From Hymenobacter monticola (GTDB lineage: Bacteria; Bacteroidota; Bacteroidia; Cytophagales; Hymenobacteraceae): a stretch of DNA of 64,000 bases. The notes beneath the pieces are model-generated. The model saw only the letters and a program-made list of their open reading frames with translations, did no database searches and had not been told where the DNA came from. The position numbers were made by a program, and so were the translations under genes. Of this stretch, positions 13,401 through 45,840 are shown one piece after another (the first letter of the stretch is position 1; each line of letters opens with the position of its first letter). The stretch lies in contig NZ_CP094538.1 in assembly GCF_022811645.1 (NCBI RefSeq), positions 1-64,000 of the forward strand. Reading direction: 5' to 3'.

Positions 13401-13436
13401 CCTCTCTTTAACAAAATCCACCTTTTATTTGAATAC
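13401..13436 (+). repeat. Intergenic motif copy (leftmost of the array)
   Basis: CCTCTCTTTAACAAAATCC then ACCTTTTATTTGAATAC. It fits the array consensus: a left half near CTCGTTTTAACGATTC, a centre GACC and a right half near GTTTTNNTGAAC. First recognisable copy. Confidence 0.5.
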
Positions 13437-13505
13437 ACCGCTTTGTCTGAGCGGTTTTGCCCTAATTTACTCCGCCTTACACGCGGCTTGCCTAACCCAT
13501 GGCTC

Positions 13506-13796
13506 ATGAGCGACGATGACAAGATTATGCGGGCAGTGTATGGATTGGTGTTGCTGGCATTGGTACCGGCCCTAGTGTGCTACCTCGTATTGACCCGAAG
13601 CGCGATGGGCAAACGAGCGCACGGGCCTGCAGTCGTATTGCTGGCAAACGCGCTGGTGCAGCTCCTAGTGTTGCACCTCTGGATTGGCAAGCCGCACTCG
13701 TTGCAGGACTCTGTAGAATTGTACCGCACGTCGTGGTTCTTTTGGGCACCTAGCTTGGTTGTCTGTTCAGTTCGACAGTTTTTTAATCTCGTCTAA
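13506..13796 (+). CDS. Small membrane protein, function unknown
   Basis: The product has 96 residues from the ATG at 13506. Three hydrophobic segments are visible: YGLVLLALVPALVCYLVL, VVLLANALVQLLVLHLWI and a weaker one near the C-terminus (FFWAPSLVVCSV). No signal peptidase site or known motif is present. The gene is bounded by array motifs at 13401 and 13801. Confidence 0.55.
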   Translation: MSDDDKIMRAVYGLVLLALVPALVCYLVLTRSAMGKRAHGPAVVLLANALVQLLVLHLWIGKPHSLQDSVELYRTSWFFWAPSLVVCSVRQFFNLV

Positions 13797-13800
13797 TCCG

Positions 13801-13834
13801 CTCGTTTTAGCGATTCCGACCGTTTGGCTGACCT
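13801..13834 (+). repeat. Intergenic motif copy
   Basis: CTCGTTTTAGCGATTCC, GACC, GTTTGGCTGACC. Very close to consensus. It overlaps the last 2 bases of the convergent gene that follows, so it cannot be that gene's promoter. Confidence 0.7.
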
Positions 13835-14198
13835 ACTGGCGTGGGAAAACAGTGACTCGGTCCTTGTAATAAAAAGTGGCAAACGCCTGCTGCTTCCAGC
13901 GCGGGGTTTGGGCAAACCGGCGGTCGACTACTTGTTGCCAATCCGGAGGAAACCCAGGTAAATGGGCTAAAAGCCCCTGGAGCAAGCCCGCGTACCCCTC
14001 AATGTTTTCCCAAGAAGTATCGGCTTTGAGCACGCTGTTGCGGGCGTGCACGAACAAGAAGTAGGTGTTGTCATTGATTTCATCCCCACCCGCGCGCTTG
14101 GCCGCTTCGACGCAGGTGATTTCCAACCAAGTAGCCCAGCAGTGGCCATTGGGCAGATGAATGCCAATAGCAGTGCAAACGTGGTGGGGGCGGGACAT
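13833..14198 (-). CDS. Hypothetical protein
   Basis: A 121-residue soluble protein starting MSRPHHVCTAIGI, with no signal peptide. It is rich in aromatic residues (NGHCWATWLEITC, TYFLFVHARN, FATFYYKDRV), suggesting a compact alpha/beta domain. I do not recognise the family. It stands alone on the minus strand between two array motifs; immunity-type proteins have similar size and composition, but this is only a guess. Confidence 0.5.
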   Translation of the reverse strand: MSRPHHVCTAIGIHLPNGHCWATWLEITCVEAAKRAGGDEINDNTYFLFVHARNSVLKADTSWENIEGYAGLLQGLLAHLPGFPPDWQQVVDRRFAQTPRWKQQAFATFYYKDRVTVFPRQ

Positions 14199-14226
14199 CT
14201 GAGCAGGAATGTGTGGTCAACCTATC

Positions 14227-14258
14227 GCTGCTTCTGCTAAATCACCATTTACTTGTAC
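14227..14258 (+). repeat. Intergenic motif copy, diverged
   Basis: GCTGCTTCTGCTAAATC, ACCATTTACTTGTAC. Matches the consensus spacing with several substitutions; closest to the copy split by the tandem MITEs at 38.1 kb. Confidence 0.4.
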
Positions 14259-14276
14259 TTACACCCCGCCCTTCGC

Positions 14277-14666
14277 TTACCAAGGCGGAGGCAGCTGCCC
14301 GATGGGTGGATTCGCTTTGCACAAACGCAGCAACTCGGCGCCCTGTGAGCTTAAGTAACGAAGGGATTTCTTGTAGTAAAACTCTGAAATCAGGGCCAGC
14401 CTTTCTATGACGCCCTCCCAGGCCACATGCAGCAAATACTCATCGGTACTGGCCAGCCACTTGTTGAGGAACGCGAAATAGCGGCGGCATGCTCGCTCGT
14501 CTCCCTGGTCCAGCAAGGTAAGTAAATGGCTGCCGAAATCACACCCCACGCCGTAGAACCACCCTTCGCCGGCCAGATAGTCGCGAAAATCCTCGCTGTA
14601 GGCGACAAATTCCGGCAGCGCACCCCGCAGCTTGTTGGCAAAGTTGGCCTGGGTCACGTGCTTCAT
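14277..14666 (-). CDS. Hypothetical cytosolic protein, immunity-like
   Basis: The product has 129 residues from the ATG at 14666 (MKHVTQANFANKLRG). An upstream frame of 18 codons has no support. Features are ALPEFVAYSEDFRDYL, a glycine turn, a helical GDERACRRYFAFLNKWL and a C-terminal helix pair. The organisation resembles small all-helical immunity-type proteins (the DUF7674-like group), but I am not certain of the family. It is a single gene between array motifs. Confidence 0.5.
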   Translation of the reverse strand: MKHVTQANFANKLRGALPEFVAYSEDFRDYLAGEGWFYGVGCDFGSHLLTLLDQGDERACRRYFAFLNKWLASTDEYLLHVAWEGVIERLALISEFYYKKSLRYLSSQGAELLRLCKANPPIGQLPPPW

Positions 14667-14770
14667 GGTCCAAGATAGGCGTAACCTGAAGAGGGCTCTT
14701 CGCCTTACGCGTTGCAGCACGCTTGATTGTTTAACCGGACCAATAAGTTGGTCTTTGCTCTGGTCAGGAT

Positions 14771-14800
14771 AAGTTTATCTTCGGCTCCCTAAACTGAATT
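14771..14800 (+). repeat. Intergenic motif copy, diverged
   Basis: AAGTTTATCTTCGG, CTCCCTAAACTGAATT. The left half is close to the copy at 40.28 kb (CGTTTACCTTCGGACC). Weak but correctly placed between genes. Confidence 0.35.
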
Positions 14801-14845
14801 GCCGCGTTTACTGCAGTACCATTTCAGTGGACTGAGCAGATGTGA

Positions 14846-15130
14846 TTAGTTCTTCATGAACATGGAGAACAACCCGACCGCTCCGCACACAACGGCAAAG
14901 CACACGACGAGCAAGAACACAGCAATTTTGCCTTTGATTGTGGAGAAGGGAGGCCATACGAGCAACCGGGTCTGGAAGGCCGCACAGAATAAGACCACCA
15001 CCCCAACTACCACCACCAGAAAGGCTCCTAACAGCCATCCAGCGATTTCGTCGCTGTGTGAGTCGAGGCCGGCCTGTGCAGAGAACGGCAGCACACAGCA
15101 AACCAGTAAAAGAAGAGTTCTTGAAAACAT
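14846..15130 (-). CDS. Small exported membrane protein
   Basis: A 94-residue protein with a clear signal peptide (MFSRTLLLLVCCVLPFSAQA), then two transmembrane helices (WLLGAFLVVVVGVVVLFCA and IAVFLLVVCFAVVCGAVGLF) joined by a short basic loop. This layout is common among small Hymenobacter accessory proteins. Function unknown. Confidence 0.6.
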   Translation of the reverse strand: MFSRTLLLLVCCVLPFSAQAGLDSHSDEIAGWLLGAFLVVVVGVVVLFCAAFQTRLLVWPPFSTIKGKIAVFLLVVCFAVVCGAVGLFSMFMKN

Positions 15131-15313
15131 GCGGACAAGATGGGGGGCACATATACAGCAGAGTCGACTAATCTGACCCTCGTTTTAATTTTCGGCGTGG
15201 CCGGAACCGGCTCCCGTGCGCGGCGGCTACCTTTCTAACCGTTTTGGTGTACTGTAGCACCATTCTACCGGAAGCGGTTTTGCTATTCCGAAGCGCCGAA
15301 CATGGGGCGCGTG

Positions 15314-17341
15314 CTACCACACCACGAGCACGCGGTTGTTGCTGGTATCGGCGATGTAGACCTTGCCGGCGGCATCGACGGCCACGCCCTGGGGCTGCGC
15401 CGGCACGATGCTGCCCGTGTAAGCCGGATTGACGGCCCGGCCACTGTCGTCGATGAGGGTGCTGAAGTGGCCGTTGGGCGTAACATGGCGGACGGCGTTA
15501 TTGACGGGGTCGGTTACGTAGAGGGAACCGTCGGGCGCGACCGCAACGCCTATGGGGTTGCGAAAGCTTGGCGCACCGCTCGGTTCCTCGTACGGGTCGC
15601 AATGGGGCCCACAACCGGCCAGGATGCTCACTTTTCCCTTGGGGGTGACTTTGTAGACGCGGGCCGTCAGACTGCCGGTGATGTACAGCGTGCCATCGCG
15701 CGCGATGGCAACGCCGAAGGGCGCGACGCGTCCTTCGGCGTTGCCGGGCGGCTCGCGCCAGGGCGTCAGGTCCACCGCCGTGCCCACCCGGCCATTGGGC
15801 GCGATGCGCCGGATGCAATCGGCACTGTCGGCCACGTACACGGCGCCGTTGGCGGCCACGGCCACGCCGGTGGGCCGGGTGAACCGGGCCGCGGGGCCGG
15901 TCCCGTTGGCCAACCCGCGCTGGCCGGAGCCGGCCAGCGTGCTCACCTGCCCCCGAGGACTGATTTTGCGAATGCGGTGGTTGCCGGTATCGGCCACGTA
16001 CACGGTATCGCCGGGGCCCACGGCCACGCCCAATGGACGCGTAAAACGGGCGGCCGCGCCGGCACCATCGGCAAAACCGGCTTCGCACGCGCCAGCTAAC
16101 GTACTGACCGCTCCTTCGGGGGTGATTTTGCGGATGCAGTGGTTGTCGCCGTCGGCCACGTACACCGTGCCGCCGGGGGCTACTGCCACGCCAAACGGCT
16201 CCCGGAAACGGGCCGTCGGGCCCGGCCCGTCAACGCGGGTGACTTCGCCCGCGCCAGCGAGCGTGCCCAACTGGCCATCCGGCGAAAGACGCGTGATGCG
16301 GTGGTCGTCGTGCGCGACGACGTAAAGCGAGCCATCGGCGGCCCGGGTTAAGCCCCAAGGGCTGGCAATGTGGGCGGCCGTGCCCGGGCCAAAGGCATAG
16401 CGCGGAGCGCCGGGGGCCGAGTGGGCCACGTAGGACAAGGTACTGACCTGCCCATTGGGCAGGATTTGATGGATGGCATTCCGGCCCGCATCGGCCACGT
16501 ACACCGTGCCGTTGGCCGCCACGGCTAAGCCGTTGGGCCGAAAGTGCTCGGTTCTCACCCCGCGGTAAGCCGCCTTGAATTCCGGCTTGCCGGCCAGTAC
16601 GCGCACCCGCCCGCTGGGCCAAATCCGGCAAATGCGCATGTCCGAGGCACCGGCCACGTACACGCTGCCGTCGTTTCCCACCGCCACGGCGGCGGGCCGC
16701 CGGAGGGTGACCACGGTATCGCCTTTCGAAGGGAAGTGGCCCGCCGGTCGGCTCCCCGGCAGGGCGCTTGCCACGCCGGCGGCGGTGATTTTATAAATGC
16801 TGTCCTGCGGTTTATCGGCCACGTACAACGTGCCGGCGGCATCGACGGCCAAGCTGCTGAACGAGCTGACACCCGCGCCAGGGGCAACCAGGTGGCCCAG
16901 GCCCGGTAGGGTGCTCACTTGCCCGTCGGGGGTGATTTTGCGAATGGCCTGAGAATAATTGTCGGTGACGTACACCGTGCCCCGGGCATCCACCGCAATG
17001 GCCGTGGGGTTGGTGAACCGGGCCGTTGCCGCCGGTCCGTCGGTCGTGCCGACCTCGCCGGAGCCAGCCAGCGTGCTCACCTGGCCATCCGGCCGCACGC
17101 GCCGGATGCGGTTGTTGTTGGTATCGGCCACGTACAGCACGCCGTCGGCCCCTTGAGCCATGCCGGAAGGATAGTAAAAAAGAGCCGTTAACCCCGGGCC
17201 GTCGGCATGGTTTCCGTAGCCTCCGGCCAGCACCCGCACCAGGGGGGCGGGCGAGGCGGAGGCCGGCCGTTGGCTGTGGGCAAGCCCTGCGTCACCCAGG
17301 AAGGCCAGGACCAGTAACAATGGTTTCGGAAGGCTATTCAT
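15314..17341 (-). CDS. Exported NHL-repeat beta-propeller protein
   Basis: A 675-residue protein with a signal peptide (LLLVLAFLGDAGLAHSQ) followed by about eleven NHL-type repeats covering nearly the whole length. The recurring core is GTVYVADxxNHRIRKI with xPxGxVSTLAG and a short linker such as GPAATARFTNPTAIAVD. NHL repeats form beta-propellers that bind proteins, sugars or nucleic acids; in Bacteroidota such proteins are usually periplasmic or surface-bound. No enzymatic domain or C-terminal sorting signal is visible. Antisense open frames across it are by-products of the repeats. Confidence 0.85.
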   Translation of the reverse strand: MNSLPKPLLLVLAFLGDAGLAHSQRPASASPAPLVRVLAGGYGNHADGPGLTALFYYPSGMAQGADGVLYVADTNNNRIRRVRPDGQVSTLAGSGEVGTTDGPAATARFTNPTAIAVDARGTVYVTDNYSQAIRKITPDGQVSTLPGLGHLVAPGAGVSSFSSLAVDAAGTLYVADKPQDSIYKITAAGVASALPGSRPAGHFPSKGDTVVTLRRPAAVAVGNDGSVYVAGASDMRICRIWPSGRVRVLAGKPEFKAAYRGVRTEHFRPNGLAVAANGTVYVADAGRNAIHQILPNGQVSTLSYVAHSAPGAPRYAFGPGTAAHIASPWGLTRAADGSLYVVAHDDHRITRLSPDGQLGTLAGAGEVTRVDGPGPTARFREPFGVAVAPGGTVYVADGDNHCIRKITPEGAVSTLAGACEAGFADGAGAAARFTRPLGVAVGPGDTVYVADTGNHRIRKISPRGQVSTLAGSGQRGLANGTGPAARFTRPTGVAVAANGAVYVADSADCIRRIAPNGRVGTAVDLTPWREPPGNAEGRVAPFGVAIARDGTLYITGSLTARVYKVTPKGKVSILAGCGPHCDPYEEPSGAPSFRNPIGVAVAPDGSLYVTDPVNNAVRHVTPNGHFSTLIDDSGRAVNPAYTGSIVPAQPQGVAVDAAGKVYIADTSNNRVLVVW

Positions 17342-17516
17342 CCGGAAAAGGTAATGCCGGGAAAACCCTTGTTTTCGCTGACGGATTTCGATAGTCTACA
17401 TGGCGTAGCAAGGCTACTTGTTTTTCGATGCCCACCCGCCATTTTTGCCCCTTACGACCATCATGCGAGCCGGGTCGCAGGTTTTTCCTATTCAGTTAAT
17501 GACAGCCCACGAGGAA

Positions 17517-19415: not shown

Positions 19416-19563
19416 GAGCGAAGGTAGGATGTGGTAAACAACGAGAGCAGACCCTCCGACTCCGCCCCATAGCTGCGGGTATTCACTGTCCAGGCACTGG
19501 TTGACAATGCGTTGCTAGGTACGCAGATAAAACGATGGTCTAAACGTTCCTTTTCTAAATTGA

Positions 19564-19595: not shown

Positions 19596-19638
19596 CGTTG
19601 ATATCTTACTCCAGTAGCCCTCCACCCGTTACTATCGT

Positions 19639-23277: not shown

Positions 23278-23417
23278 GTGGCTGTTGCAGAACCCGATGC
23301 GACGACTCCAAGTGATGGCTTGACGAGCCAATTCAGACTGAATATGGCGCTTTTGCACGCAATTAGTAGCTCGCTTACGCGGGTTCCTAGCCGTTTAGCC
23401 AGTTCTGCAACAGCCAC
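23278..23417. mobile_element. IS1182-related MITE, copy B
   Basis: Ends GTGGCTGTTGCAGAAC and GTTCTGCAACAGCCAC; 140 bp. Exact 4-bp duplication GACC at 23274-23277 and 23418-23421. Removing it and one GACC restores a full array motif: left half CCTCGTCTTAGCAATTGG, right half GTTTTCGTAAACAG. Confidence 0.85.
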
Positions 23418-24024: not shown

Positions 24025-24117
24025 AAAAAGCAAAAATAGAGGTTGAGTTAAGGCGATGCCACCGTCCCATAATAGCTGTAGCCTCTTTTGCCTTTTCAAC
24101 CGTTTTGGCATACTTAT

Positions 24118-26110: not shown

Positions 26111-26137
26111 CCTAACCCTGCTTTTAGCGATTGGAAC

Positions 26138-26286
26138 GTGGCTGTTGCAGAACTCGGCGCAACGAGTTGAAAAGCCCATTGGGCGAGCAGCAAGCGGATA
26201 AAATGGTCTGTGAAGCACTATTGCCGGGTGACGATGAGTTAACACAACCCATCCACGAGCCCTGACCCGAGTTCTGCAACAGCCAC
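26138..26286. mobile_element. IS1182-related MITE, copy C
   Basis: Ends GTGGCTGTTGCAGAACTCG and GAGTTCTGCAACAGCCAC; 149 bp. It splits an array motif: CCTGCTTTTAGCGATTGGAA on the left, CCGTTTTTGTGAACGG on the right. Flanks GAAC and AACC are near-matches to the usual GACC. Confidence 0.8.
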
Positions 26287-26510
26287 AACCGTTTTTGTGA
26301 ACGGTTATTTGCCAATCAGGACGCTACTGCGCGCCTTCCCTTCAAAGGGATGGGCCTGCGGCGCGGTCGCACAGGCGGCTTATCTTGCCGGGCCCTTGCA
26401 ACCAGCGGGTCTTTTGCCCGCCCGAGCATGGTCGGAATAGCGTTTTATCGGCTGCCTTGTTTTGGTGGTCGCATCCGTAGCGGCGTCCGGCCGGGTTCTT
26501 TTTGTTTGCC

Positions 26511-29480
26511 ATGAAACACCTCTATCTCCAGGGCCCCGCCGCGGCCCGGTGCGGTCTTCTGGGATGGTTCCTGGCGGTGGCGAGCCTGTTCGTTCCGGCG
26601 GGACCCAGCCAAGCGCAACCCCGCGTCACCGCCCGTTCAGCCGATTTTTCCCTCTTTGACAATGCCGTGGCCGTGCTGCCCAACGGCAACCTGGTGGTCG
26701 CCGACCCCGGCTACAGCCCGGACACGACGCGCCGGGGGATGGGCGCCGTGTACCTCTACGACGGCCGCACCAAAGCCCTGATTAGTGTGCTCACCGGGAG
26801 CACGGCCGACGACCAAGTGGGCAGTGGCGGCATCACCGTGCTCGCCAACGGCAACTTCGTGGTGCGCAGCCCGGACTGGAACAACGGCGCGGCCGCGCGG
26901 GCGGGAGCCGTCACCTGGGGCAGCGGGACACGCGGGGTGAGCGGGGTGGTGAGCGCGGCCAACTCCCTAGTAGGCGCCACGACCGACGACCAAGTGGGCA
27001 ACAGCACGCCGGTCAATCAGTTCGCCGACGACTACCACTATAACTACGACGACGTCGTCCTGAACAAGGAAGTCACGGCGCTGCCCAACGGCCATTATGT
27101 GGTGAGCAGTCCGTACTGGCACAACGGGGCCGCTGCGAACGCCGGGGCCGTGACCTGGGGCAATGGCAACACCGGCATCCGGGGGGTGGTGAGCGCTGCC
27201 AACTCGCTGGTGGGGACCCACCCCAACGACCAGGTGGGCAACAACTCCCCGGACAATAATACCAGTGACTACGTCGACAACACCAGCGTGCGGGTGCTGA
27301 CCAACGGCCACTACGTGGTGAGCAGCCCCAACTGGCGGAACCGGGCCGCGCCCCAGGCCGGGGCCGTGACCTGGGGCAACGGCGCCACCGGCGTGCGCGG
27401 GGCGGTCAGCGCCGCCAATTCCTTGGTTGGTTCCCATCCCGGCGACCAGGTAGGCCTCGGCGTGACGGAGCTGCCCAACGGCAACTATGTGGTCAGCAGC
27501 CCGCAATGGAAGAACCGGGCCGCGGCCACGGCCGTCGGGGCCGTCACTTGGAGCAGCGGCCAAACCGGGGCGACGGGCGTCGTCAGCGCCGCCAATTCCC
27601 TGGTCGGGGCCCATAGCTTCGACTACGTGGGCAACGGCGGGGTGACGGTGCTGCCCACCGGCCACTACGTGGTGAGCAGTCGGTTCTGGCACAACGGGGC
27701 CGCCGCCAACGCCGGGGCCGTGACCTGGGGCAACGGCCGCACCGGCGTGAAGGGCGTCGTGGGTGCCGCCAACTCGCTGGTCGGCTCCCATGCCGGCGAT
27801 GACGTGGGGGCGAACTTCCAGAGTTATTATGACCACGACTACGAAGAACCCCCGACCGACGGCCGGGGCATCACGGTGCTGCGCAACGGCCACTACGTGG
27901 TGAGTAGCCCCGAATGGCAACACGGGGCCGGGGCCGTGACCTGGGCCAGTGGCGCCACCGGCGCGCGTGGAGTGGTCAGCGCCACGAATTCCTTGGTGGG
28001 CGCCCACCGCGACGACCAGGTCGGCACGGGCGTGGTGGCGCTGGCCAACGGCCACTACGTAGTGCGCAGCCCGCGCTGGCAAAACCGGGCAGTTTCGCAC
28101 GCTGGCGCCGTGACGTGGGGCCACGGCCAGCGGGGCGTTAAAGGCGCCATCAGCGCGGCCAATTCGCTGGTCGGCGTCCATGCCAACGACCGGGTGGGCC
28201 TCGGCGTGACGGCGCTCGCCAACGGGCATTACGTGGTGAGCAGCCCGCTCTGGCAACACCGGGCCGCAGCCCGGGCCGGGGCCGTGACCTGGGGCAACGG
28301 GTGGACCGGCGTCAAGGGGGCGGTGAACGCCGCCAACTCGCTGGTCGGCGCCCACGCCGACGACCAAATCGGGAACGATGCCTCGGTTGATGGGTACATC
28401 GAAGACCGGGTTCGGAACGGTCAGGTCACGGCGCTGCCCAATGGGCACTACGTGGTCAGTAGCCCGTACTGGCGAAACGGAGCGGCCCGCATGTCCGGCG
28501 CCGCCACCTGGGGCAGCGGCACCGCCGGGGTTAGGGGCGTGGTGAGCGCGGCCAACTCGCTGGTCGGTTCTGCCGGCGGGGACCTGGTGAGCAGCGCCGG
28601 CGTGACCGCGCTGCCCGGGGGCCGGTACGTGGTGTGCAGCCCCCATTGGGCCAACGGGGTGGCCGCCGGCGCGGGGGCGGTAACGCTGGGCAACGGCACC
28701 GCTGGCGCCACGGGCGGGGTGAGTGCGGCCAACTCCTTGGTGGGCACCACGGGCAATGACCTGGTGGGCTCCGGCGGCGTCACGGTGCTGGCCACCGGCC
28801 ATTTCGTCGTCCACAGCCCGTCCTGGAAGCACGGGTCGGCCCGCCCGGCCGGGGCCGTCACCTGGGGCAGCGGCACGGCCGGGGTGCACGGGGCCGTGAG
28901 CCCGGCGAACTCGTTGGTTGATTTCCAGCGCGACGAATACACCGCCGGCAGCGAGGTCCTGGCGCTGCCCAACGGCAACTACCTGGTCAGCACCCCCAGC
29001 TGGCCAAACGGGGCCGTGGCCCGGGCGGGGGCCGTGACCTGGGGCAGCGGCCAAACCGGCACGCAGGGGGCGGTGAGCGCGGCCAACTCGCTGGTGGGCA
29101 CGCACCTGAACGACCAGGTGGGCGTCGGCGGCGTGACCGTGCTGGCCACCGGCCACTACGTGGTGAGCAGCCCCTTCTGGAAAGACAGTTCCGCCGCCGG
29201 GGCCGTGACCTGGGGCAGCGGCACGGCCGGCGTGCAGGGCCGCGTGAGCGCAGTCAACTCCCTGGTCGGCACCAATGGCAGCGGCGAGGAGGGCGTGGAA
29301 GAGGGTCAGGTAGCGGCCCTCATGAACGGCGACTACCTGGTGCTCACCCATGGCACGCCGAATGGGCCAACGGGCCCGGGGGTGGTCCTCACCCCGGGCC
29401 GGGGCACGGCTGGGGTCACGGGGGGCGTGAGCGCGGCCAATTCTTACGTCAGTCCCCCGGGCACCGCTTCACCCCGCTAG
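26511..29480 (+). CDS. Large exported repeat protein (DUF5650-like modules)
   Basis: The product has 989 residues from the ATG at 26511. The signal peptide region ends LFVPAGPSQAQ. About sixteen repeats of roughly 55-60 residues follow, each built as GHYVVSSPxW, AGAVTWGNGxTGV, SAANSLVGxHxxDQVG. This matches the repeat family I recall as DUF5650, found in large bacterial surface proteins. Repeats at residues ~170, ~250 and ~460 carry acidic insertions (for example DDYHYNYDDV), possibly metal-binding loops. No C-terminal sorting domain is visible. The strong repetition makes a 794-codon antisense frame that is not a gene. Confidence 0.75.
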   Translation: MKHLYLQGPAAARCGLLGWFLAVASLFVPAGPSQAQPRVTARSADFSLFDNAVAVLPNGNLVVADPGYSPDTTRRGMGAVYLYDGRTKALISVLTGSTADDQVGSGGITVLANGNFVVRSPDWNNGAAARAGAVTWGSGTRGVSGVVSAANSLVGATTDDQVGNSTPVNQFADDYHYNYDDVVLNKEVTALPNGHYVVSSPYWHNGAAANAGAVTWGNGNTGIRGVVSAANSLVGTHPNDQVGNNSPDNNTSDYVDNTSVRVLTNGHYVVSSPNWRNRAAPQAGAVTWGNGATGVRGAVSAANSLVGSHPGDQVGLGVTELPNGNYVVSSPQWKNRAAATAVGAVTWSSGQTGATGVVSAANSLVGAHSFDYVGNGGVTVLPTGHYVVSSRFWHNGAAANAGAVTWGNGRTGVKGVVGAANSLVGSHAGDDVGANFQSYYDHDYEEPPTDGRGITVLRNGHYVVSSPEWQHGAGAVTWASGATGARGVVSATNSLVGAHRDDQVGTGVVALANGHYVVRSPRWQNRAVSHAGAVTWGHGQRGVKGAISAANSLVGVHANDRVGLGVTALANGHYVVSSPLWQHRAAARAGAVTWGNGWTGVKGAVNAANSLVGAHADDQIGNDASVDGYIEDRVRNGQVTALPNGHYVVSSPYWRNGAARMSGAATWGSGTAGVRGVVSAANSLVGSAGGDLVSSAGVTALPGGRYVVCSPHWANGVAAGAGAVTLGNGTAGATGGVSAANSLVGTTGNDLVGSGGVTVLATGHFVVHSPSWKHGSARPAGAVTWGSGTAGVHGAVSPANSLVDFQRDEYTAGSEVLALPNGNYLVSTPSWPNGAVARAGAVTWGSGQTGTQGAVSAANSLVGTHLNDQVGVGGVTVLATGHYVVSSPFWKDSSAAGAVTWGSGTAGVQGRVSAVNSLVGTNGSGEEGVEEGQVAALMNGDYLVLTHGTPNGPTGPGVVLTPGRGTAGVTGGVSAANSYVSPPGTASPR

Positions 29481-29608: not shown

Positions 29609-29638
29609 GCGCTTGCTCTTCCGACCGTTTGGCTGAAC
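29609..29638 (+). repeat. Intergenic motif copy
   Basis: GCGCTTGCTCTTCC, GACC, GTTTGGCTGAAC. Right half exact; 15 bp before the next start codon. Confidence 0.65.
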
Positions 29639-30189: not shown

Positions 30190-30220
30190 GCGCGTTCAAG
30201 CCACGACCGTTTCAGTAAAT
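30190..30220 (+). repeat. Intergenic motif copy
   Basis: GCGCGTTCAAGCCAC, GACC, GTTTCAGTAAAT. It closely resembles the copy at 39295 (same GCGTTCAAG left half), although the genes differ. Confidence 0.6.
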
Positions 30221-38124: not shown

Positions 38125-38274
38125 GTGGCTGTTGCAGAACCCAGGGATGAGCCTTAGAAGTCAGCGCTGACAAGGCGAATAGAGCTAGAAAGGTGGATTA
38201 ACCAGGTCTTTCCGTGCATTTAGCAGCCAGCTTACCTCGTTTTTGAGCAGTCTAAGGAGTTCTGCAACAGCCAC
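38125..38274. mobile_element. IS1182-related MITE, copy D
   Basis: 150 bp, GTGGCTGTTGCAGAACCC to GTTCTGCAACAGCCAC. GACC precedes (38121-38124) and follows (38275-38278). It lies head to tail with copy E, sharing the GACC between them; together they split one array motif (left half GCTCGTTTTTCTAAATT). Confidence 0.85.
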
Positions 38275-38278
38275 GACC

Positions 38279-38427
38279 GTGGCTGTTGCAGAACTCGACT
38301 CAACGATATAAAAGTCATTGGAGGCGGTCACAAGCGGATGATAAGGCGCGTAAAACACTCTTTTCGGGCGGTTGCGAGTTCGATTACCCGGCCAATGGAG
38401 CCTGCCCAAGGGTTGTGCAACAGCCAC
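38279..38427. mobile_element. IS1182-related MITE, copy E (tandem with D)
   Basis: 149 bp, GTGGCTGTTGCAGAACTCG to GGGTTGTGCAACAGCCAC. Left flank GACC shared with copy D, right flank CACC then TTTTTCGTGAAC, the right half of the same array motif. Its interior differs from D, so it is not a simple tandem duplication but a second insertion at the same site. Confidence 0.85.
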
Positions 38428-39294: not shown

Positions 39295-39327
39295 GCACGC
39301 GTTCAAGGCACGACCCTTTTGCTGAAC
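39295..39327 (+). repeat. Intergenic motif copy
   Basis: GCACGCGTTCAAGGCAC, GACC, CTTTTGCTGAAC. Good match. Confidence 0.65.
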
Positions 39328-39674: not shown

Positions 39675-39706
39675 CGCCGGCAAAGGAAGGAAAAACCACC
39701 GCTTAT

Positions 39707-39740: not shown

Positions 39741-39837
39741 CCAATTTGTACAGGTCAAACTGCTTAACTAAAAAGTATATCTCGTTCCTCTTGTACAGCA
39801 CGCAAGGCTAGCAAAATGTCAAAGAAAGAATCAGCGG

Positions 39838-40260
39838 ATGATGAAAAACGGAAACTACCTAAGAGGATTGATTGCCATTACGACATGTGGGCTGGTCTCC
39901 TGCTTTTCGAATAAATACGAATTAGAAGGCGAAAAGAAGGTGGTTGGTGCCCAGGATTTGATTGTTAGAATATATCAGGAGGACAAGTTCGACAATGTGA
40001 CGGCCATCGAATTTGAGCTGGTAAACGACAAGGATTCTATCCTAATACCTGCAAATTATCTGACGGGAACAGATATGGCGCATGAGACAATCGACCGGTA
40101 TTATGCAGGCTTGCATGACAGCATTTTCTACCTGTGCTATCCCTATCCAACTATTTATGCGATTGAACATCTTAGCCCGTATAAAAAACAACTACCACTC
40201 GACTCTCTGTTCAAAAGATTGAAAGAGTATGACCCTAGGTTGATTATCGCAGAGCACTAG
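39838..40260 (+). CDS. Lipoprotein, unknown function (lower GC)
   Basis: A 140-residue protein: signal YLRGLIAITTCGLVSCFSNK with a lipobox. The mature part is acidic and AT-rich in codon use (DKFDNVTAIEFELVNDKDSI), clearly lower in GC than the genes on both sides, suggesting a different donor. No recognised domain. It is bounded by array motifs at 39707 and 40280. Confidence 0.55.
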   Translation: MMKNGNYLRGLIAITTCGLVSCFSNKYELEGEKKVVGAQDLIVRIYQEDKFDNVTAIEFELVNDKDSILIPANYLTGTDMAHETIDRYYAGLHDSIFYLCYPYPTIYAIEHLSPYKKQLPLDSLFKRLKEYDPRLIIAEH

Positions 40261-40298
40261 CCTCCATTCCCATAATGGAGCGCGTTTACCTTCGGACC

Positions 40299-40447
40299 GT
40301 GGCTGTTGCAGAAGTCGGGTTAAACCTGAAAACCTTTGTTTGATACGCCAGATTGAGCCAGAAAGGCCAGGGGACGGCCCTTTGACGGGCGTTTAGCAGC
40401 CCATTTGCCCGGTTATTGAGCCGTCTACCGGGTTCTGCAACAGCCAC
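40299..40447. mobile_element. IS1182-related MITE, copy F
   Basis: 149 bp, GTGGCTGTTGCAGAAGTCGG to GGGTTCTGCAACAGCCAC. Exact GACC duplication (40295-40298 and 40448-40451). The interrupted motif is GCGCGTTTACCTTCG on the left and CTTTTCTTGAAC on the right. Interior resembles copy D (shared GTTTAGCAGCC and TTGAGC blocks). Confidence 0.88.
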
Positions 40448-40523
40448 GACCCTTTTCTTGAACTGGCGTATGACTTGCAAACAGGAGTAGCTTTGTTACA
40501 CACCTTATGTCAATTGTACACGC

Positions 40524-41063
40524 ATGGGTCAAATCGCTAGTCTGTTTTGCTTGGATGAGGCGGGATTTCAACAAGTAGCCGCGAACCCTGAATCAGTGGC
40601 GATTCCTCCACTCGCACTGGCCTCGGAAGGGTTTAACAAAACGTTTATGGGGCTGCAATTTGTGCTCGCGAAAGGGCGACCGCCGGAGCAGGCCGCCTTG
40701 CTTGGGCAGTTGTTTGAGCCCGTGACGCATGTAGGAGCGGAAATCGATTACGACCAAATCGATTGGGAGAACCTGTCCGCAGACGTGCCCTTGGAGGGGA
40801 CGGCGGTGTATTACCACGACCCAGCGACGGTACAGGCGCTGGCCCACGTTCTGGCCACGGTCACGGACGATGCCTTTTGTCAGGCATTTAACCCGGACGA
40901 GTTGAACCGCGAAGGAGTTTATCCCGGTGGCGTGTGGAACCGGGAAGTAGACGAGAATATCGGGTACAATGCACGCGACTTGTTGGAAGAACTGCACCAT
41001 TTGCAGCACTTCTTTGCTCTGGCTAGCGCGGGGCAGCATTACTGCATTTGTTATGTGGGGTAA
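40524..41063 (+). CDS. DUF1877 (YfbM-like) family protein
   Basis: A 179-residue soluble protein. The conserved family elements are AVYYHDPATVQALAHVLATV, FCQAFNPDELNREGVYPGG and the C-terminal YNARDLLEELHHLQHFFALA. DUF1877 proteins are small cytosolic proteins often found near polymorphic toxin immunity genes; their biochemical role is not established. Start at ATG 40524. Same size as the family norm (about 160-180). Confidence 0.8.
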   Translation: MGQIASLFCLDEAGFQQVAANPESVAIPPLALASEGFNKTFMGLQFVLAKGRPPEQAALLGQLFEPVTHVGAEIDYDQIDWENLSADVPLEGTAVYYHDPATVQALAHVLATVTDDAFCQAFNPDELNREGVYPGGVWNREVDENIGYNARDLLEELHHLQHFFALASAGQHYCICYVG

Positions 41064-41072
41064 CGGTGCTAA

Positions 41073-41107
41073 ACCCTCGTTTTAACGATTCAGACCGTTT
41101 TACTGAA
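41073..41107 (+). repeat. Intergenic motif copy (best match to consensus)
   Basis: CCTCGTTTTAACGATTCA, GACC, GTTTTACTGAAT. Taken as the reference copy. It starts 10 bp after a stop codon and lies 53 bp before the next start. Confidence 0.75.
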
Positions 41108-41159
41108 TATCCATACAGCTAATGGTCAGTATCTTCAGCCTTTCACCTTTTCTTTGGTT

Positions 41160-41447
41160 ATGAAACCTGAACCACTTTTCCTACTTGGCCTGACGCTAGT
41201 GGCCCTATGCGGTCCTGCTTCCGCTCAAACAACGCCAGCTCCTGCACCTAATACCTCCCTGGGGAAAGGAGCCCCTCATCCCAAAAGGGCCGCCGCTTCC
41301 CCGCGCACGGTCACGGTGCCGATGGCAGCCGTGAAGCTAGACACCGCTGCCTTTCATCGCGGACGCCCCGCTGACGCCATTCTCCTCCGCGTCCAGGACC
41401 TTCCACCTTATCGAAAAACTAAAGGAGGAAGTCGTTCGAGAAACTAA
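41160..41447 (+). CDS. Small exported proline/alanine-rich protein
   Basis: The product has 95 residues from the ATG at 41160 (LFLLGLTLVALCGPASAQ signal). The mature part is low-complexity (APAPNTSLGKGAPHPKRAAA) and basic. The 3' end overlaps an exact-length 25-bp tandem duplication (41416-41440, 41441-41465), so the C-terminus may have been altered by it. Function unknown. Confidence 0.45.
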   Translation: MKPEPLFLLGLTLVALCGPASAQTTPAPAPNTSLGKGAPHPKRAAASPRTVTVPMAAVKLDTAAFHRGRPADAILLRVQDLPPYRKTKGGSRSRN

Positions 41448-41465
41448 AGGAGGAGGTCGTTCGAG
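41416..41465 (+). repeat. 25-bp tandem duplication at a gene end
   Basis: AAACTAAAGGAGGA(A/G)GTCGTTCGAG occurs twice head to tail with one mismatch. It spans the stop codon of the small exported gene; the stop TAA lies in the second copy. Confidence 0.7.
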
Positions 41466-41470
41466 CATCC

Positions 41471-41530
41471 GCTCGTTTGGCTATTCGGCACCGGTGCCGC
41501 GCCGGTGATTTTTCCGACCGTTTCACTGAA
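41471..41530 (+). repeat. Intergenic motif copy split by a small hairpin
   Basis: The left half CGCTCGTTTGGCTATTC is followed by the palindrome CACCGGTGCCGCGCCGGTG (about 41490-41508), then TTCCGACC and GTTTCACTGAAC. The hairpin may be a terminator for the preceding gene. Confidence 0.5.
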
Positions 41531-41552
41531 CGGATTTGCATCAAAAGATGGT

Positions 41553-42176
41553 CTACCCCCCGGCACGCTGCCGGTCATGCCGCTCTACCTCGCGGGCCCG
41601 CTGCTTGTCCTGCCGCTTCTGCCCCAGCCACGAGAAAACCGCGACATAGGTAAAGCCCAGAAGCGGGATTCCAAAAAGTATAGCAAGGACAAGCGAGTGA
41701 GTTAGTAAGCCTATTATAAAGAGTGCCAGACAGGCTATGCCGATTGCTATTGTTATAATGCGCAATACCCCGTCCTGCTCCGATACCACATCCTGCACCG
41801 TGGGTTTGAGACGGTATGCAGTCGGGATTTTACTTTGTAAATAGTTTGTTTTGCGTGCGTTAGCAGCTGCATTTTTACTAAATAACGTTTTCCGTACTAC
41901 TGCTTTACTGGCTTTGTGGGACTGCAAGGGCTCAATGCGGACGCTTCGCTTCGCAGCCGACGGTTCTGGTCTACCTACGCCAGCCTCCCCAGTTGATGGA
42001 GCTTCCGTTAGGATAACAACGTTTTCTCTAGTGCCAGAATTTACTGGCTGAAACGAAAAGGCTGCTCGTTCAGCCCGGCAGCCAACGAACAGCACCACGC
42101 AGAGCAGCAAAAACCACTTATAGATTTGGCTATCAACAAACCCATAGTGTTTTGAATCGCGGTAACGCTTGGTCAT
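41553..42176 (-). CDS. Lipoprotein with two C-terminal membrane helices
   Basis: The product has 207 residues. Signal YKWFLLLCVVLFVGCRAERA with a lipobox, then ERAAFSFQPVNSG, matching the protein at 33661. After a polar linker come IITIAIGIACLALFIIGLLT and LVLAILFGIPLLGFTYVAVF, and a basic C-terminal tail (RQDKQRAREVERHDRQR). Third member of the local paralogous group. Confidence 0.6.
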   Translation of the reverse strand: MTKRYRDSKHYGFVDSQIYKWFLLLCVVLFVGCRAERAAFSFQPVNSGTRENVVILTEAPSTGEAGVGRPEPSAAKRSVRIEPLQSHKASKAVVRKTLFSKNAAANARKTNYLQSKIPTAYRLKPTVQDVVSEQDGVLRIITIAIGIACLALFIIGLLTHSLVLAILFGIPLLGFTYVAVFSWLGQKRQDKQRAREVERHDRQRAGG

Positions 42177-42640
42177 AGGATATTAGCTGATAGGTGACTA
42201 TAAATTAACGCTCGTTTTGCTTTACTGTGGCCGTTGTAGGAGTTCACGAAACTCATCCCCGAGGGGTAGTTTGCTGAACTCATTAATTGAACCAGTTTAC
42301 TGAACTCAAACTGGACCGTAGAGTGCATTTACGAGCTTTTCAGGCCTCACTAGCGGCCGTTCACTCAAAGGAGCAAATTAATTGCCTGCCCCTTTACTTA
42401 TTTTTCGTTTCCCGAGCGGCTTCTTTTTTAGCATGTAAACCACCGGACGGAATCCACTCCTGGCAACGTATTGGGCGTAGCAGCAGGGCCAAAGTCAGAC
42501 GGGCCTTTTCGGCTCCATTGCTTCCGACGGCTCGTCATCGATTACGAGCGTACCCCGGCTAGCCACGCTGCGTGGCGCTGGCTCCTAATTTAACCCTGTC
42601 CTTGCGACCAGCCATGGCCCCCTAATTCCCCAAACACGCT
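42177..42640. other. Intergenic stretch with a partial array motif
   Basis: A left-half motif copy (CGCTCGTTTTGCTTTAC) starts near 42209, followed by GTGGCCGTTGTAGG, which may be a decayed MITE end. Two short repeats TTTACTGAACTC/TTTGCTGAACTC lie at about 42270-42305. No convincing gene. Confidence 0.4.
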
Positions 42641-44008
42641 CTAAATATTGAACAGGTCGTAAAAGGCGTGCTTACAACTCCCCCATAGACCGAGTTCAGG
42701 TTGTAGCTTGGGTCCTACGGTAAAGAGAAGACGGTCGGGCGCGGCCAAGTCGTATTCCTGTACCGACTGGTCGGGGCGAAACAGGCCGTGTAATTGGTCG
42801 CCTCGCCATCGCACCGTGTATAGCCCCTCGCCTCGAATCCAGAGGCTGGCAATGGGCGGCGCCGGCTCGGATTCCCACGGCAACCCTCCCTTCCGGCGGC
42901 GAAGCACCGGCGTGCGAAGCAATACCTGTGAGCTGTGCGGGGGGAGCCAGTAGGTAACCACGCCGGCCGAAAGGTTGTACGCTTCCACCCGGTTGCGGGG
43001 GCCGGGGCCCCACAGCGGGTCAACGCGGCCCACGGCGAACACCCGGTACCATTGCCCGCTGTGCTGGGCCAGGTGGTCGATGGCCCCCCACCCCCTGGCA
43101 CGGCCGGCCGCATCGACTGGCATGCCGAAGCGGTGTGCCTTCTTGAAGATGACCTGCCCCGCCTTGGTCAGCGGCAGCGAATCCAGGAGGTAGCGCACCG
43201 TGAACTGCACCTCTTCGCGTGCGTGGTTGGTCACGGCCCATTCCCGTTCACGTTGCCGGGGTCGGTCGCTTACGTAAACCCGGTAATTGGTATTGTTGGG
43301 GCCGTAGCGGAGGTACAAGGTGTCTCGCCGGGAGGCAGGGCGGTTGTATTGGTAGAAGCCATCGAGCGCCGTCGACTCGGATGATTGCTGGTCTTTGAAA
43401 TAGCCACTTACGTCTCCCAGCCTCAGCTGCAGGTACTCGTAGCCGAATTTGCGAAACCCGGGGCTCCAGGGCTCCCCGGGCCGCCCCACGTCGTTGCCTC
43501 CCGACCAGAGCCGGATGTGAATGCCTGAGTCAAAGTTGTTTTCCGTCACCTGAAAGCCGACCGAGTGAATATTTTTCAGGTTGCGACGGTAGTCGTCATA
43601 CAGTTCCCAACCGCTGGTTATTTCGATGTCTGCGGCACTGTCCCTCCCCACCAACCATCCGTTTCTAACCACATAACCGCTGGTTATTTCCACCGTTGAG
43701 TCAGGGTCCATCCCCACCAATGTTCCTCGTCTGACAACCATGGCCGCTTCCCTTGGATAGGGGAAGCGGTGGCTGTACCGGGGTCCAAATAGTGAATCAG
43801 GGATTTCCTCCACCACCAAGTAGGGGTTATCCACGGCCGGAAAACCCCGCCAGGCAGGATGCCGGTCGAAGGCTGGCAGTCGGTAGCCCAGTGCAAAGCA
43901 TAGGGCTACCCAGGTCAGCCCCCCACCCACCAGCCAGCGCGTGGCAAGCGGATGCGACCGGGTCAGGCCGGCTACCCAACGCAGAAAAGAAGAGATGGTC
44001 GTGAGCAT
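42641..44008 (-). CDS. Membrane-anchored or exported protein, unknown function
   Basis: The product has 455 residues from the ATG at 44008 (MLTTISSFLRWVAG; an earlier start at 44032 adds 8). One N-terminal hydrophobic helix (WLVGGGLTWVALCFALGY), then a large beta-rich region with repeated glycine turns (VVRRGTLVGMDPDSTVEITS, VVRNGWLVGRDSAADIEITS, a near-duplicate pair of about 25 residues). The C-terminal part (VYVSDRPRQREREWAVTNHA) lacks known motifs. Probably a surface-anchored protein. Confidence 0.55.
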   Translation of the reverse strand: MLTTISSFLRWVAGLTRSHPLATRWLVGGGLTWVALCFALGYRLPAFDRHPAWRGFPAVDNPYLVVEEIPDSLFGPRYSHRFPYPREAAMVVRRGTLVGMDPDSTVEITSGYVVRNGWLVGRDSAADIEITSGWELYDDYRRNLKNIHSVGFQVTENNFDSGIHIRLWSGGNDVGRPGEPWSPGFRKFGYEYLQLRLGDVSGYFKDQQSSESTALDGFYQYNRPASRRDTLYLRYGPNNTNYRVYVSDRPRQREREWAVTNHAREEVQFTVRYLLDSLPLTKAGQVIFKKAHRFGMPVDAAGRARGWGAIDHLAQHSGQWYRVFAVGRVDPLWGPGPRNRVEAYNLSAGVVTYWLPPHSSQVLLRTPVLRRRKGGLPWESEPAPPIASLWIRGEGLYTVRWRGDQLHGLFRPDQSVQEYDLAAPDRLLFTVGPKLQPELGLWGSCKHAFYDLFNI

Positions 44009-44208
44009 TGGGTGGCAAAGTAAATGCAGCACGCGTAAGCCTTGTTCGCCCCGCGCCCCACCTTTGCGGGCCTGATTGGCTTTACATGAACATGACCGAG
44101 ATTGCCATCGGCGGCCGCCCCGTAGGGCCGGCCCACAAGCCTTTTATCAGTGCCGTGATGTCGGGTAGTACTGCTTGGAATCAACAGAACCAGTTCACGC
44201 AAAGGGTC

Positions 44209-45818
44209 GTGGCTGTTGCAGAACTCGGTTTAGGTGGTTGCGCTGGCCAAGAAGCGCGGTACCGAAGGGTCCGTAGCGGCAGGGCCTGTGACGGCCGAGG
44301 TCTGGCGGTTGTGCCGCTCATGGGGCCTCTGGGCGGCTAGCAGGGGCCGTGCCAGCACCATCGCTGTGCTGATTTGCTGTTGGGGACGGTGCTTGAGCAG
44401 CTTTTTGAGGTTGTAGGCCACGGCCGTGAGCAGCATGGTTTTGTGGGCGCCGGCCAGACCGCGCACATTCATCCGGCGCAAGCCGTAGTGGTGAATCAGG
44501 TTCCCAAACACGGGCTCGACAGTACCTTGGCGGACGCGGCGTTTGCGTTGCCCCCACCGGCTCTGCTGGCGCTGCCAGGCCCGGCGGTAGGCCGCGTCGT
44601 AAATCGAGCGGTTAATCTGCTTGCGTTTGGCCCGGGGGACGCACATGGCCTTGCGCGGGCATTGCTGGCAGTCTGAGCAGGTGGCCCAATAGATTTTGTG
44701 CCAGCCCCCGTCCTGATTCGTGTCGTACTTCTGAAAGGGCAGCTGCTTGCCTTCAGGGCAGGTAAAGGCATCAGTGGCACGGTCGTAGGTAAAGCCCTCA
44801 ATTTCGGGCTTGTACTGCCCAAACACCGGAATCCAGGCCGTGATGTGCGCGGCTTCAAGGCCGGCATAGTTGGGTCCGTTGGCGTAGCCGGCATCGGCCA
44901 GCAACGCGCGCAAGGGCAGTTCGTTCGTGCGCAAGCGCTGCTGCAGGCCGGTGAGCAGCCGGGGCAAGTGCAGGCTGTCGCGTTTATCGGCGTAATCGGC
45001 CTGCACGTGGCTGATGACGCCGTGGGCTGTGTCCACCGCCAAACTACAGAGGTAGTTCAAGGCCCGCGCTTTGCCGGGTTTGACGGAGATGCGCGCGTCG
45101 GGGTCGGTGGGGCTGTAATGCGTCTTGTTGCTCAGCAAGCGGGCTTTTTCGTGCTGCGCGCCCAGCGCGCCGGTCTGGGCGCCCTGCCGCCGGCGCTGCC
45201 CCGTGGCCAGCTGGCGCAGTTGGTGGGCCGGGGCCGTCAGCACCGAGCCCGCGGCGGGCGTCTGCTCGCGGCCGCTTAGGTGGGGCCCGGCAGGCCCGGC
45301 GGCCTGTTTTTCCAGCACCGCTTCCAGCGACGCGTTGGCCTTGACGGGTGCCGAGTCGACGGCTTGGGTGTCACCGGCCACCAGGCCCCGGGCCACGCAC
45401 TGGGCAAAGACGAGGTCGAACAGGCGCTCAAAGACCGCGGCTGGGAAGAGCTGGCGGGTGCGGCTCACGGTCGAATGCCACGGCAACTCTTCGTCCACTT
45501 CGTAGCCGAGAAACAGCAGGATGTCCAGCCGCAGGGCGCAGTGCTCGAGCAGGCGACGGTCGCTGACCAAGTTTTCCAGCCGGCCGACGAGCACCAACTT
45601 AAAGAACACGACCGGGTCTAACGAGGGCTGGCCCGTGTGGCTGTAGAGGCCCCGCGTCGCGTCGTAGAGAAACGACCAGTCGACCAGCTCCGCCAGCCGG
45701 CGGTACAGATTGTGGGGCCGCACCCGCTCGCTGAGCCGAAAGCGAACGACCTCTTTGTCGAGAAACAGCTTCTTGCCTTGCATCCTCCCTTTACGAAACT
45801 GGGTTCTGCAACAGCCAC
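44209..45818 (-). mobile_element. IS1182-family insertion sequence, complete
   Basis: A 1,610-bp element with ends GTGGCTGTTGCAGAACTCG and GGGTTCTGCAACAGCCAC, identical in the outer part to the MITE ends. Target duplication GGTC (44205-44208 and 45819-45822). Reverse complemented, the flanks read CTCCTTTCAACGATTTCGAC and GACCCTTTGCGTGAAC: the same array motif as elsewhere, but in reversed orientation relative to the other copies. Confidence 0.88.
44230..45783 (-). CDS. IS1182-family transposase
   Basis: The product has 517 residues from the ATG at 45783; the longer frame upstream runs through MITE copy G and is rejected. Family landmarks: RRLAELVDWSFLYDATRGLY, SLDPVVFFKLVLVGRLEN near the N-terminus, ALRLDILLFLGYEVDEELPW, the catalytic Asp in GDTQAVDSAPVKANAS, a zinc-like CSDCQQCPRKAMCVPRA, LLADAGYANGPNYAG with the second Asp, and VEPVFGNLIHHYGLRRMNVR with the Glu. 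Complete and possibly active; the likely source of transposition for the seven MITEs with the same ends. Confidence 0.9.
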   Translation of the reverse strand: MQGKKLFLDKEVVRFRLSERVRPHNLYRRLAELVDWSFLYDATRGLYSHTGQPSLDPVVFFKLVLVGRLENLVSDRRLLEHCALRLDILLFLGYEVDEELPWHSTVSRTRQLFPAAVFERLFDLVFAQCVARGLVAGDTQAVDSAPVKANASLEAVLEKQAAGPAGPHLSGREQTPAAGSVLTAPAHQLRQLATGQRRRQGAQTGALGAQHEKARLLSNKTHYSPTDPDARISVKPGKARALNYLCSLAVDTAHGVISHVQADYADKRDSLHLPRLLTGLQQRLRTNELPLRALLADAGYANGPNYAGLEAAHITAWIPVFGQYKPEIEGFTYDRATDAFTCPEGKQLPFQKYDTNQDGGWHKIYWATCSDCQQCPRKAMCVPRAKRKQINRSIYDAAYRRAWQRQQSRWGQRKRRVRQGTVEPVFGNLIHHYGLRRMNVRGLAGAHKTMLLTAVAYNLKKLLKHRPQQQISTAMVLARPLLAAQRPHERHNRQTSAVTGPAATDPSVPRFLASATT

Positions 45819-45840
45819 GGTCGAAATCGTTGAAAGGAGT

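Follow-up and report, generated by a model that had tools for sequence, protein, structure and literature searches.

The window analysed here, bases 1-64,000 of the 91,723-bp contig C5 of Hymenobacter monticola (genome of 7 contigs, 6.1 Mb), contains an array of small genes separated by copies of a short motif. Very probably this motif is the crossover site of an integron-like gene-cassette system that uses a small serine recombinase derived from a Tn3-family transposon. The window itself holds an orphan array, in which sites, cassettes and one platform remnant were kept and for which no cognate recombinase gene was found in the genome. Judged by its sequence this array is degraded, and the mechanism was read from relatives. 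With somewhat less confidence we favour the wider view of a second independent kind of integron, in which a Tn3 resolvase would have been taken over once in Hymenobacter, with a double-headed platform, entry at CT and shuffling at AC, a self-maintaining convergence, and cassettes moving between arms and plasmids. Sites, junctions, layout, platform and recombinase linkage were read directly from the compared genomes; labels of the type G###, C# and L### denote genomes, contigs and loci of this analysis.

The best-conserved part of the site is NACC(G/C)TTTnnnT(G/A)AAC, and the whole site comprises about 28 bp. Its right half reads C(G/C)TTTnnnTGAAC, and the looser left half-site frequently ends in GTTTA..TTCG. 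In 501 sites, which were themselves picked by the profile, the information content was 1.5-1.9 bits each at positions 1-3 (ACC), 5-7 (TTT), 11, 14 and 15, and weaker in the left half. An earlier model, built from 17 copies of the window, performed poorly when genomes were searched with it. A first profile, covering the right half only and seeded with ten copies from the original prediction (threshold 13 bits), found 20 plus and 2 minus places in the window, against 0.6 expected per strand from shuffling; among the plus places, 11842 lies outside the array and 19974 failed a second profile. The latter (30 positions, refined on 252 sites mostly from other genomes) found 16 plus sites and 1 minus site of at least 13 bits. 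The motif that had been read from the window alone is thus real, with 17 strong sites, whereas 100 Markov shuffles gave 0.34 on average and 2 at most. From the 13 copies listed at that time, 8 reached 13 bits with the second profile (13801, 19564, 29609, 30190, 39295, 39707, 41073, and 41471, the left half of 41516) and 5 fell below it (13401, 7.2; 14227, 11.2; 24743, 7.5; 30788, 0.6; 37530, 9.9); 24743, 30788 and 37530 score well with the first profile, but served there as seeds. The claim of a constant orientation applied to nearly all copies, with one reversed copy (44193-44208 / 45819-45834). Splitting of copies by miniature inverted-repeat transposable elements (MITEs) was borne out: four plus sites are split at the core by MITEs with ends GTGGCTGTTGCAGAAC, with GACC on both sides in most cases, and the reversed site is split by an insertion sequence (IS) of the IS1182 family with the same ends. 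The features of the window are as follows (scores from the second profile unless stated otherwise).

13407..13434, plus: degenerate cassette site at the left array edge beside the plasmid partition region, 7.2 bits (weak)
13806..13833, plus: cassette site, 28-bp core, GACC at 13818, 25.1 bits
14805..14832, plus: cassette site, core variant TACC, 23.1 bits
15225..15252, plus: cassette site, core variant AACC, 18.9 bits
19567..19594, plus: cassette site, 19.7 bits
23262..23433, plus: cassette site split at GACC by MITE 23278-23417, GACC on either side
24086..24113, plus: cassette site, core variant AACC, 21.7 bits
24750..24777, plus: weak cassette site, 17.5 bits with the first profile (as seed), 7.5 bits with the second
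26122..26302, plus: cassette site split by MITE 26138-26286, duplication imperfect
29611..29638, plus: cassette site, 28.1 bits
29653..30165, plus: single-gene cassette example, 170 amino acids, no Pfam match, between the sites at 29623 and 30205
30193..30220, plus: cassette site, 24.1 bits
37485..37512, plus: cassette site, 15.8 bits
38109..38443, plus: cassette site split by two tandem MITEs, 38125-38274 and 38279-38427
39300..39327, plus: cassette site, 30.3 bits
39713..39740, plus: cassette site, 26.0 bits
40283..40463, plus: cassette site split by MITE 40299-40447
40524..41063, plus: cassette gene, DUF1877 family (PF08974)
41081..41108, plus: cassette site, 25.1 bits; right flank 83% alike to G033 site C9:39714, left flanks differ
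41504..41531, plus: innermost plus-oriented site (41516), G+C-rich insertion between the left (41471) and right halves, 25.1 bits
42238..42375, minus: res-like platform remnant facing the reversed arm, array centre without recombinase
44193..45834, minus: reversed cassette site split at GACC by IS1182-family element 44209-45818, right half 44193-44208, left half 45819-45834
47111..47791, minus: serine resolvase from a different subfamily, with 35% identity to the cassette recombinase in 136 aligned positions; a neighbouring gene and probably not the engine

The MITEs and the IS1182-family element with their common ends target site cores at 23278-23417, 26138-26286, 38125-38427, 40299-40447 and 44209-45818, and IS1182-family copies were also present inside arrays of H. 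canadensis. This IS/MITE family seems to hunt recombination sites.

The profile search of Hymenobacter genomes proposed in the original prediction revealed a genus-wide distribution. In 120 genomes of the genus, the exact core pattern occurred up to 86 times per genome, compared to 0-6 times for a reversed control pattern, and the matches cluster on one strand in the listed places. Outside the genus, none of 84 genomes sampled from other genera of the family had more than two occurrences of a near-identical pattern. The refined profile yielded 429 sites with a median spacing of 623 bp in 26 Hymenobacter stretches (852 kb, backbone and the plasmid of the window counted; sites less than 12 bp from a better site on the same strand dropped). 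The first 13 stretches contained 253 sites of at least 15 bits, and one shuffle of each gave 1. A cassette consists of one gene, sometimes two, plus one site. As is typical of integrons, these sites and the gene tables of H. canadensis describe arrays of single-gene cassettes with one site each and a fixed orientation per arm. This orientation is irrespective of gene strand; in the forward arm of NZ_CP114769.1, 21 of 30 annotated genes are on the plus and 9 on the minus strand. Where both orientations occur, forward sites run into reverse sites, i.e. arrays converge (→→→ centre ←←←); two reverse-to-forward switches were seen, spanning 11 and 25 kb without sites. The single reversed copy of the window at 44.2-45.8 kb, following forward sites at 13.4-41.5 kb, fits this general layout.

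Cassettes appear to be exchanged mostly at the site core. Oriented sites were compared pairwise, with sites less than 130-200 bp from a stretch end excluded. Similarity begins at NACC position 0 or 1 in 16 of 25 pairs with a common right flank only, and 18 of 22 pairs with a common left flank only are alike right up to the core (offsets -8 to +8 tried). The same cassette recurs behind different neighbours with the junction mostly at the core N|ACC, and identical proteins were found in separate arrays and replicons of H. canadensis, e.g. immunity 53 (WP_269562245) on both plasmids. Furthermore, each array set was aligned to itself and the ends of repeated stretches were related to site cores with a limit of 25 bp. 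In H. canadensis, 60 of 102 repeat ends lay within this limit, mostly 0-8 bp into the right half, whereas 5.6% of random points did; the corresponding fractions in three other genomes were 10/12, 7/14 and 12/12. A dispersed repeat or gene-end signal, with exchange by homologous recombination or IS activity, would be an alternative explanation. IS1182-family elements and MITEs do insert at the core, and therefore some common ends belong to them. However, homologous recombination would probably need more than the few conserved bases, yet the ends accumulate immediately inside the core, and the orientation per arm is fixed whatever the gene strand, which leaves this explanation only a very small probability. 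The outcome named beforehand as speaking against cassettes, a motif located at gene ends whose borders show no exchange, was looked for in related genomes and not found. Gene content there mostly changes at the motif borders both in the pair comparisons and in the repeat-end test, and the core junctions support the predicted site-specific recombination cassette array.

To look for a recombinase gene linked to such arrays had also been suggested, and one was found in other species. In a resolvase-domain search of 11 genomes, one serine recombinase subfamily sits at array centres:

NZ_CP114768.1:269347, plus (H. canadensis): cassette recombinase between forward site 268583 and reverse site 272513
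G007:C16:59597: cassette recombinase
G040:C13:93904: cassette recombinase
G009:C30:13540, minus: cassette recombinase
G033:C10:40062, minus: cassette recombinase, only one arm within the stretch examined
G033:C1:3322, minus: cassette recombinase, only one arm within the stretch examined

This Tn3-resolvase-like protein comprises 204 amino acids, and copies are 83-95% identical to the first of six aligned. Its closest PDB matches are Gin invertase (3e-46), followed by gamma-delta resolvase (6e-28). YARVST and LDRLGRS are invariant in the six copies, which thus possess the catalytic Ser and Arg motifs of a TnpR/invertase homologue. The subfamily is set apart by score in 15 of the 120 genomes (at least 394 bits versus at most 357 for others); G044, which has a shortened copy, was counted as the 16th because the platform is present there. 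Several copies contain stops, namely G035:C68, G047, G089:C12 and G091. The median number of exact sites was 19 in the 16 genomes with the recombinase and 1 in the 104 without (Mann-Whitney p 1.1e-6, with relatedness ignored), and at least 9 exact sites were present in 11/16 and 9/104 genomes, respectively. Hence the association of recombinase and sites is strong, but incomplete in both directions. We infer that this recombinase catalyses the exchange. A Fic/DOC gene (DUF4172 + Fic) follows directly after the recombinase in at least two arrays (L314:10648-11781, L321:10599-11732) and may serve the platform as an addiction or control gene.

In the window's genome no gene of this subfamily was detected; the best-scoring relative there, at C3:52841-53416 (210 bits), is a member of a different subfamily. 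The chromosome of the same genome also has a small set (C1, about 1,028,968-1,031,832) of three sites and a platform copy, and the recombinase is absent nearby. According to the original prediction there is no integrase in the window. This overlooked the serine resolvase gene at 47111-47791, which is paired divergently with a second resolvase on the plus strand (47957-48355, contains a stop). As the engine of the array, either this resolvase or its partner appears extremely unlikely. The gene lies just 1.3 kb beyond the right end of the array, and a fragment resembling it by eye was seen just past an array of H. canadensis. On the other hand, no platform-like sequence lies beside it in the window, and its family was matched in 111 of 120 genomes irrespective of whether they contain arrays, frequently with two divergent genes side by side. 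Because of this near-universal occurrence the candidate was dropped.

The second component of complete arrays, besides the cassette recombinase, is a res-like platform. About 150 bp before the recombinase start codon are conserved in 15 aligned copies (G012C4 and G067C1 omitted); the recombinase start was lacking by the search pattern in 6 of 22 stretches, namely five with known copies, some with premature stops, and G067, which has no copy. Conservation starts with CTC(C/G)TTTnnnTGAAC, at -151 in 13 of 15 copies. This site-I-like element is followed by GCTAAAC and three palindromic boxes, GAGTTTAAGAAACTC, AAGTTTACGAAACT and GAGTTTCGTAAACTC. The sequence therefore has the make-up of a res, a 28-bp site I with accessory sites beside the gene, all of them putative binding sites. 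Sites are in reach of 14 of the 15 aligned platforms; 12 have forward sites upstream and none has forward sites downstream. Reverse sites upstream were found only in G040:C13 (26, all far); these would be accounted for if the plasmid is circular. In G009:C30, G033:C23, G033:C9 and G035:C68, the other arm is faced by a second inverted platform that lacks a recombinase. Several of the 38 platform matches represent one place read on both strands, since the boxes are palindromic. In the window, platform boxes were detected at 42307-42238 on the minus strand (14 platform queries; E 4.8e-6 over 73 bp with the best query, no better than 0.002 with the remaining ones), and the three palindromic boxes of this remnant were read by eye. 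They are preceded by ATTTG-CT-CCTTTGAGTGAAC at 42374 minus, a site-I-like sequence of 13.0 bits with the first profile. The remnant is flanked by the innermost forward site (41516) on one side and by the reversed site on the other, and no cognate recombinase follows it.

The cassette site looks like site I of a Tn3 res, because its right half matches the resolvase half-site and its GTTYA/TGAAC dyad is centred on AC, where the flanks switch. These features also bear on recombination by tyrosine recombinases. In Xer-driven modules such as the pdif modules of Acinetobacter, chromosomal XerC and XerD recombine the sites, and each of the nine array genomes examined possesses two top-scoring tyrosine recombinases whose rank and length suggest XerC and XerD; many arrays without a linked recombinase would also agree with such a system. 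A passage in PMC6449649 describes dif as two 11-bp arms around a 6-bp centre. The cassette dyad GTTYA..TGAAC, however, is centred on two bases (AC) with flanks that switch at one point, and thus is not dif-like, and complete arrays have a serine recombinase at the centre. After the junction and dyad analysis the Xer explanation was dropped, and we regard it as very unlikely. A true integron, with an IntI tyrosine integrase elsewhere in the genome and attC-like single-stranded hairpins, seems highly improbable as well. It would account for single-gene cassettes of unknown function, one-way sites and exchange at a conserved core with an apparent single crossover point. But the 265-bit cut-off of TIGR02249 was reached in none of the 120 genomes, the best single partial match scoring 98 bits; some proteins have two partial matches of about 95 bits each in one frame, and their genomes generally are not array-rich. 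The 25 tyrosine recombinase domains in 22 stretches generally have no site close, except for G033:C2 with a site about 300 bp away. Tyrosine recombinases as the engine were searched in 9 array genomes and that of the window, and were rejected, with sites near one only in G033:C2 and no pattern otherwise. Pairing of left and right halves, compared by eye in about a dozen copies, holds in some and fails in others; hence a hairpin reading of the site was dropped, a consistent hairpin not being seen. The site core is NACC(G/C)TTT as compared to GTTRRRY in attC, and the site matches Tn3 res site I instead.

Relatives of the array recombinase support this link to Tn3-family resolvases. A scan of 84,980 species genomes was evaluated for the best 80 of at least 566 relatives, with 14 of the 80 loci left unscored. 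All 13 named loci of the array subfamily carry the platform palindromes, and 12 of them obey the orientation rule or have no site in the flank examined. The 53 more distant relatives scored among these best 80 include none with the palindromes and none with more than 2 sites by the Hymenobacter profile, which arrays with divergent site sequence would escape. Four of four relatives tested adjoin Tn3 transposases. The best site-I-like 28-mer, scored against our own expected motif, starts at -140 to -157 in 29 of 31 relatives and has the form GTTC....AAACG-NN-CGTTT...TGAAC or a variant; its central dinucleotides vary, with AC in Aureispira. A tree without L324, which has a stop at residue 12, unites the array recombinases in a single clade (support 100/100) nested among Hymenobacter relatives; one of these relatives, L329, adjoins a Tn3 transposase. 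The array locus L319 (H. rubidus) encodes a Tn3 transposase (PF01526) about 2 kb downstream of the recombinase. The other eight long open reading frames (at least 800 amino acids) scanned near 13 array recombinases are not transposases; 9 of 10 such frames were scanned, and shorter or broken ones would escape.

Serine recombinases cleave both DNA strands with a 2-bp overlap between the cuts, and efficient rejoining needs matching overlaps. From the sequences we infer 2-bp overlaps, circular intermediates and a point of entry for the cassette system. The right half of the site would be the recombinase half-site, the left half a looser half-site, and AC of NACC the overlap. Since cassette ends have AC in common, excision, insertion and swapping of cassettes at AC would be expected between directly repeated sites. 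Recombination of facing sites would invert the centre and restore the convergent layout, which would explain why it is seen. A complete array would comprise a centre with the recombinase gene and the upstream platform, i.e. the CT element, some 150 bp ahead of the start codon, followed by three accessory palindromes. Where a second inverted platform faces the other arm, cassettes would accumulate on either side. Entry of new cassettes probably takes place beside the platform via a CT element at their left end, which is the least certain step. Of 501 cassette left ends, 225 have CTC(C/G)TT, in most cases near -16 or -33, as compared to 10 and 11 in two controls; together with CT in the platform this suggested entry by CT and shuffling at AC. 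The leader cassette of G033:C1 is in line with this proposal, as its 80% homologue in G007 diverges at the CT element.

Several observations do not fit this mechanism or reduce the weight of the evidence for it. The platform has CT, not AC, so that entry must differ from exchange between cassettes, and a single leader cassette with a homologue bears on it. The left half-site is weakly conserved and variable in length. Among the 25 right-shared pairs, 5 begin inside the right half-site, 2 (between species) begin beyond it and 2 extend 1 or 4 bases left of the core; 4 of the 22 left-shared pairs misfit exchange at AC, one through an internal repeat. These pairs are partly dependent (a single cassette end, observed three times, accounts for three of them), and in a few there is an IS or MITE end on one side. 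With all stretches pooled at 85% identity, a set that also contains insertion sequences and conserved platforms, only 144 of 532 repeat ends were near a core versus 9.6% of random points, and the test counts each alignment from both sides. Five recombinase-bearing genomes show just 1-3 exact sites, and 9 genomes have at least 9 exact sites without the cassette recombinase. Arrays in the latter must be relics or act in trans; many genomes are drafts, and thus absence of the recombinase is weak evidence there. Among the nine is G056, which lacks any PF00239 match and contains a twelve-site array (G056:C3:1126162-1133571). In H. piscis (L321, NZ_JAHHZN010000020.1), where recombinase and platform are present, two reverse sites upstream of the gene break the orientation rule; the sites seen on either side are reversed, which makes this locus the clearest exception to convergence. 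Further layout exceptions are G007:C16, where a platform-like copy lies outermost in an arm, and the damaged platform copy of G047.

Contig C5 is judged to be a plasmid because of its gene content, which includes a Rep3 initiator, a ParA-like ATPase and a relaxase. The first two are located at:

3097-4098: Rep3 initiator
11375-12043: ParA-like ATPase

C5 also has a PIN-domain gene, and then the array from 13.4 to 46 kb. Beyond the array are the serine resolvase (47111-47791), genes of restriction type, the relaxase and a BREX-like locus. The BREX-like locus (BrxA, BrxC-like, Eco57I methylase, PglZ) occupies about 66-80 kb of C5 (L009), and a GmrSD nuclease is encoded at 55875-57623 of the window. 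Two proteins in the array region are far above typical cassette size, one with 14 DUF5650 repeats (26502-29480) and one with NHL repeats (15314-17341). Rfam gave no match to the array of the window, and megablast against plasmids yielded short matches only, in 3 records each. A comparable system was not found in the open-access PubMed Central (PMC) literature, including searches for Hymenobacter with serine recombinase or integron; preprints and most subscription papers lie outside this collection.

To our knowledge, integrons always use a tyrosine integrase and are the best-known bacterial route to ordered, swappable single-gene arrays. If our reading is correct, the cassette-array design arose twice, once from the housekeeping resolvase of a transposon, and bacteria possess a second independent way to stockpile genes. 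Plasmids of Hymenobacter, which lives in soil and water, would then carry a gene store (immunity-like, SMI1/KNR4 and many genes of unknown function), and the system might provide a compact cassette tool.

Among known systems, the Acinetobacter pdif (dif) modules likewise place small gene modules between recombination sites on plasmids, with the recombinase in trans, but differ from the arrays described here in enzyme and site; the latter also have one orientation per arm and a platform. In the staphylococcal cassette chromosome, a serine recombinase (Ccr) inserts DNA in tandem between directly repeated sites. Ccr proteins are large serine recombinases inside the element, which has one chromosomal attB. 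Serine recombinase and tandem insertion between directly repeated sites are common to both systems, whereas here a recombinase of 204 amino acids, scoring 56 bits against the NCBIfam CcrB cut-off of 900, would serve dozens of one-gene cassettes. With the TnpR/res of Tn3-family transposons the Hymenobacter system shares a TnpR homologue, a site-I-like cassette site and palindromic boxes beside the gene. In contrast to these transposons, dozens of copies of site I form the cassette ends, and among the long open reading frames scanned a linked Tn3 transposase was found only at L319. Integrons resemble it in single-gene cassettes mostly of unknown function, one site each, a platform by the recombinase gene and the existence of recombinase-less arrays. 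Here, however, the recombinase is a serine instead of a tyrosine enzyme, the site appears to be a 28-bp res-like sequence instead of a folding attC, and arrays flank the platform on both sides with genes in both directions. The cassette system would work like an integron, but is not one.

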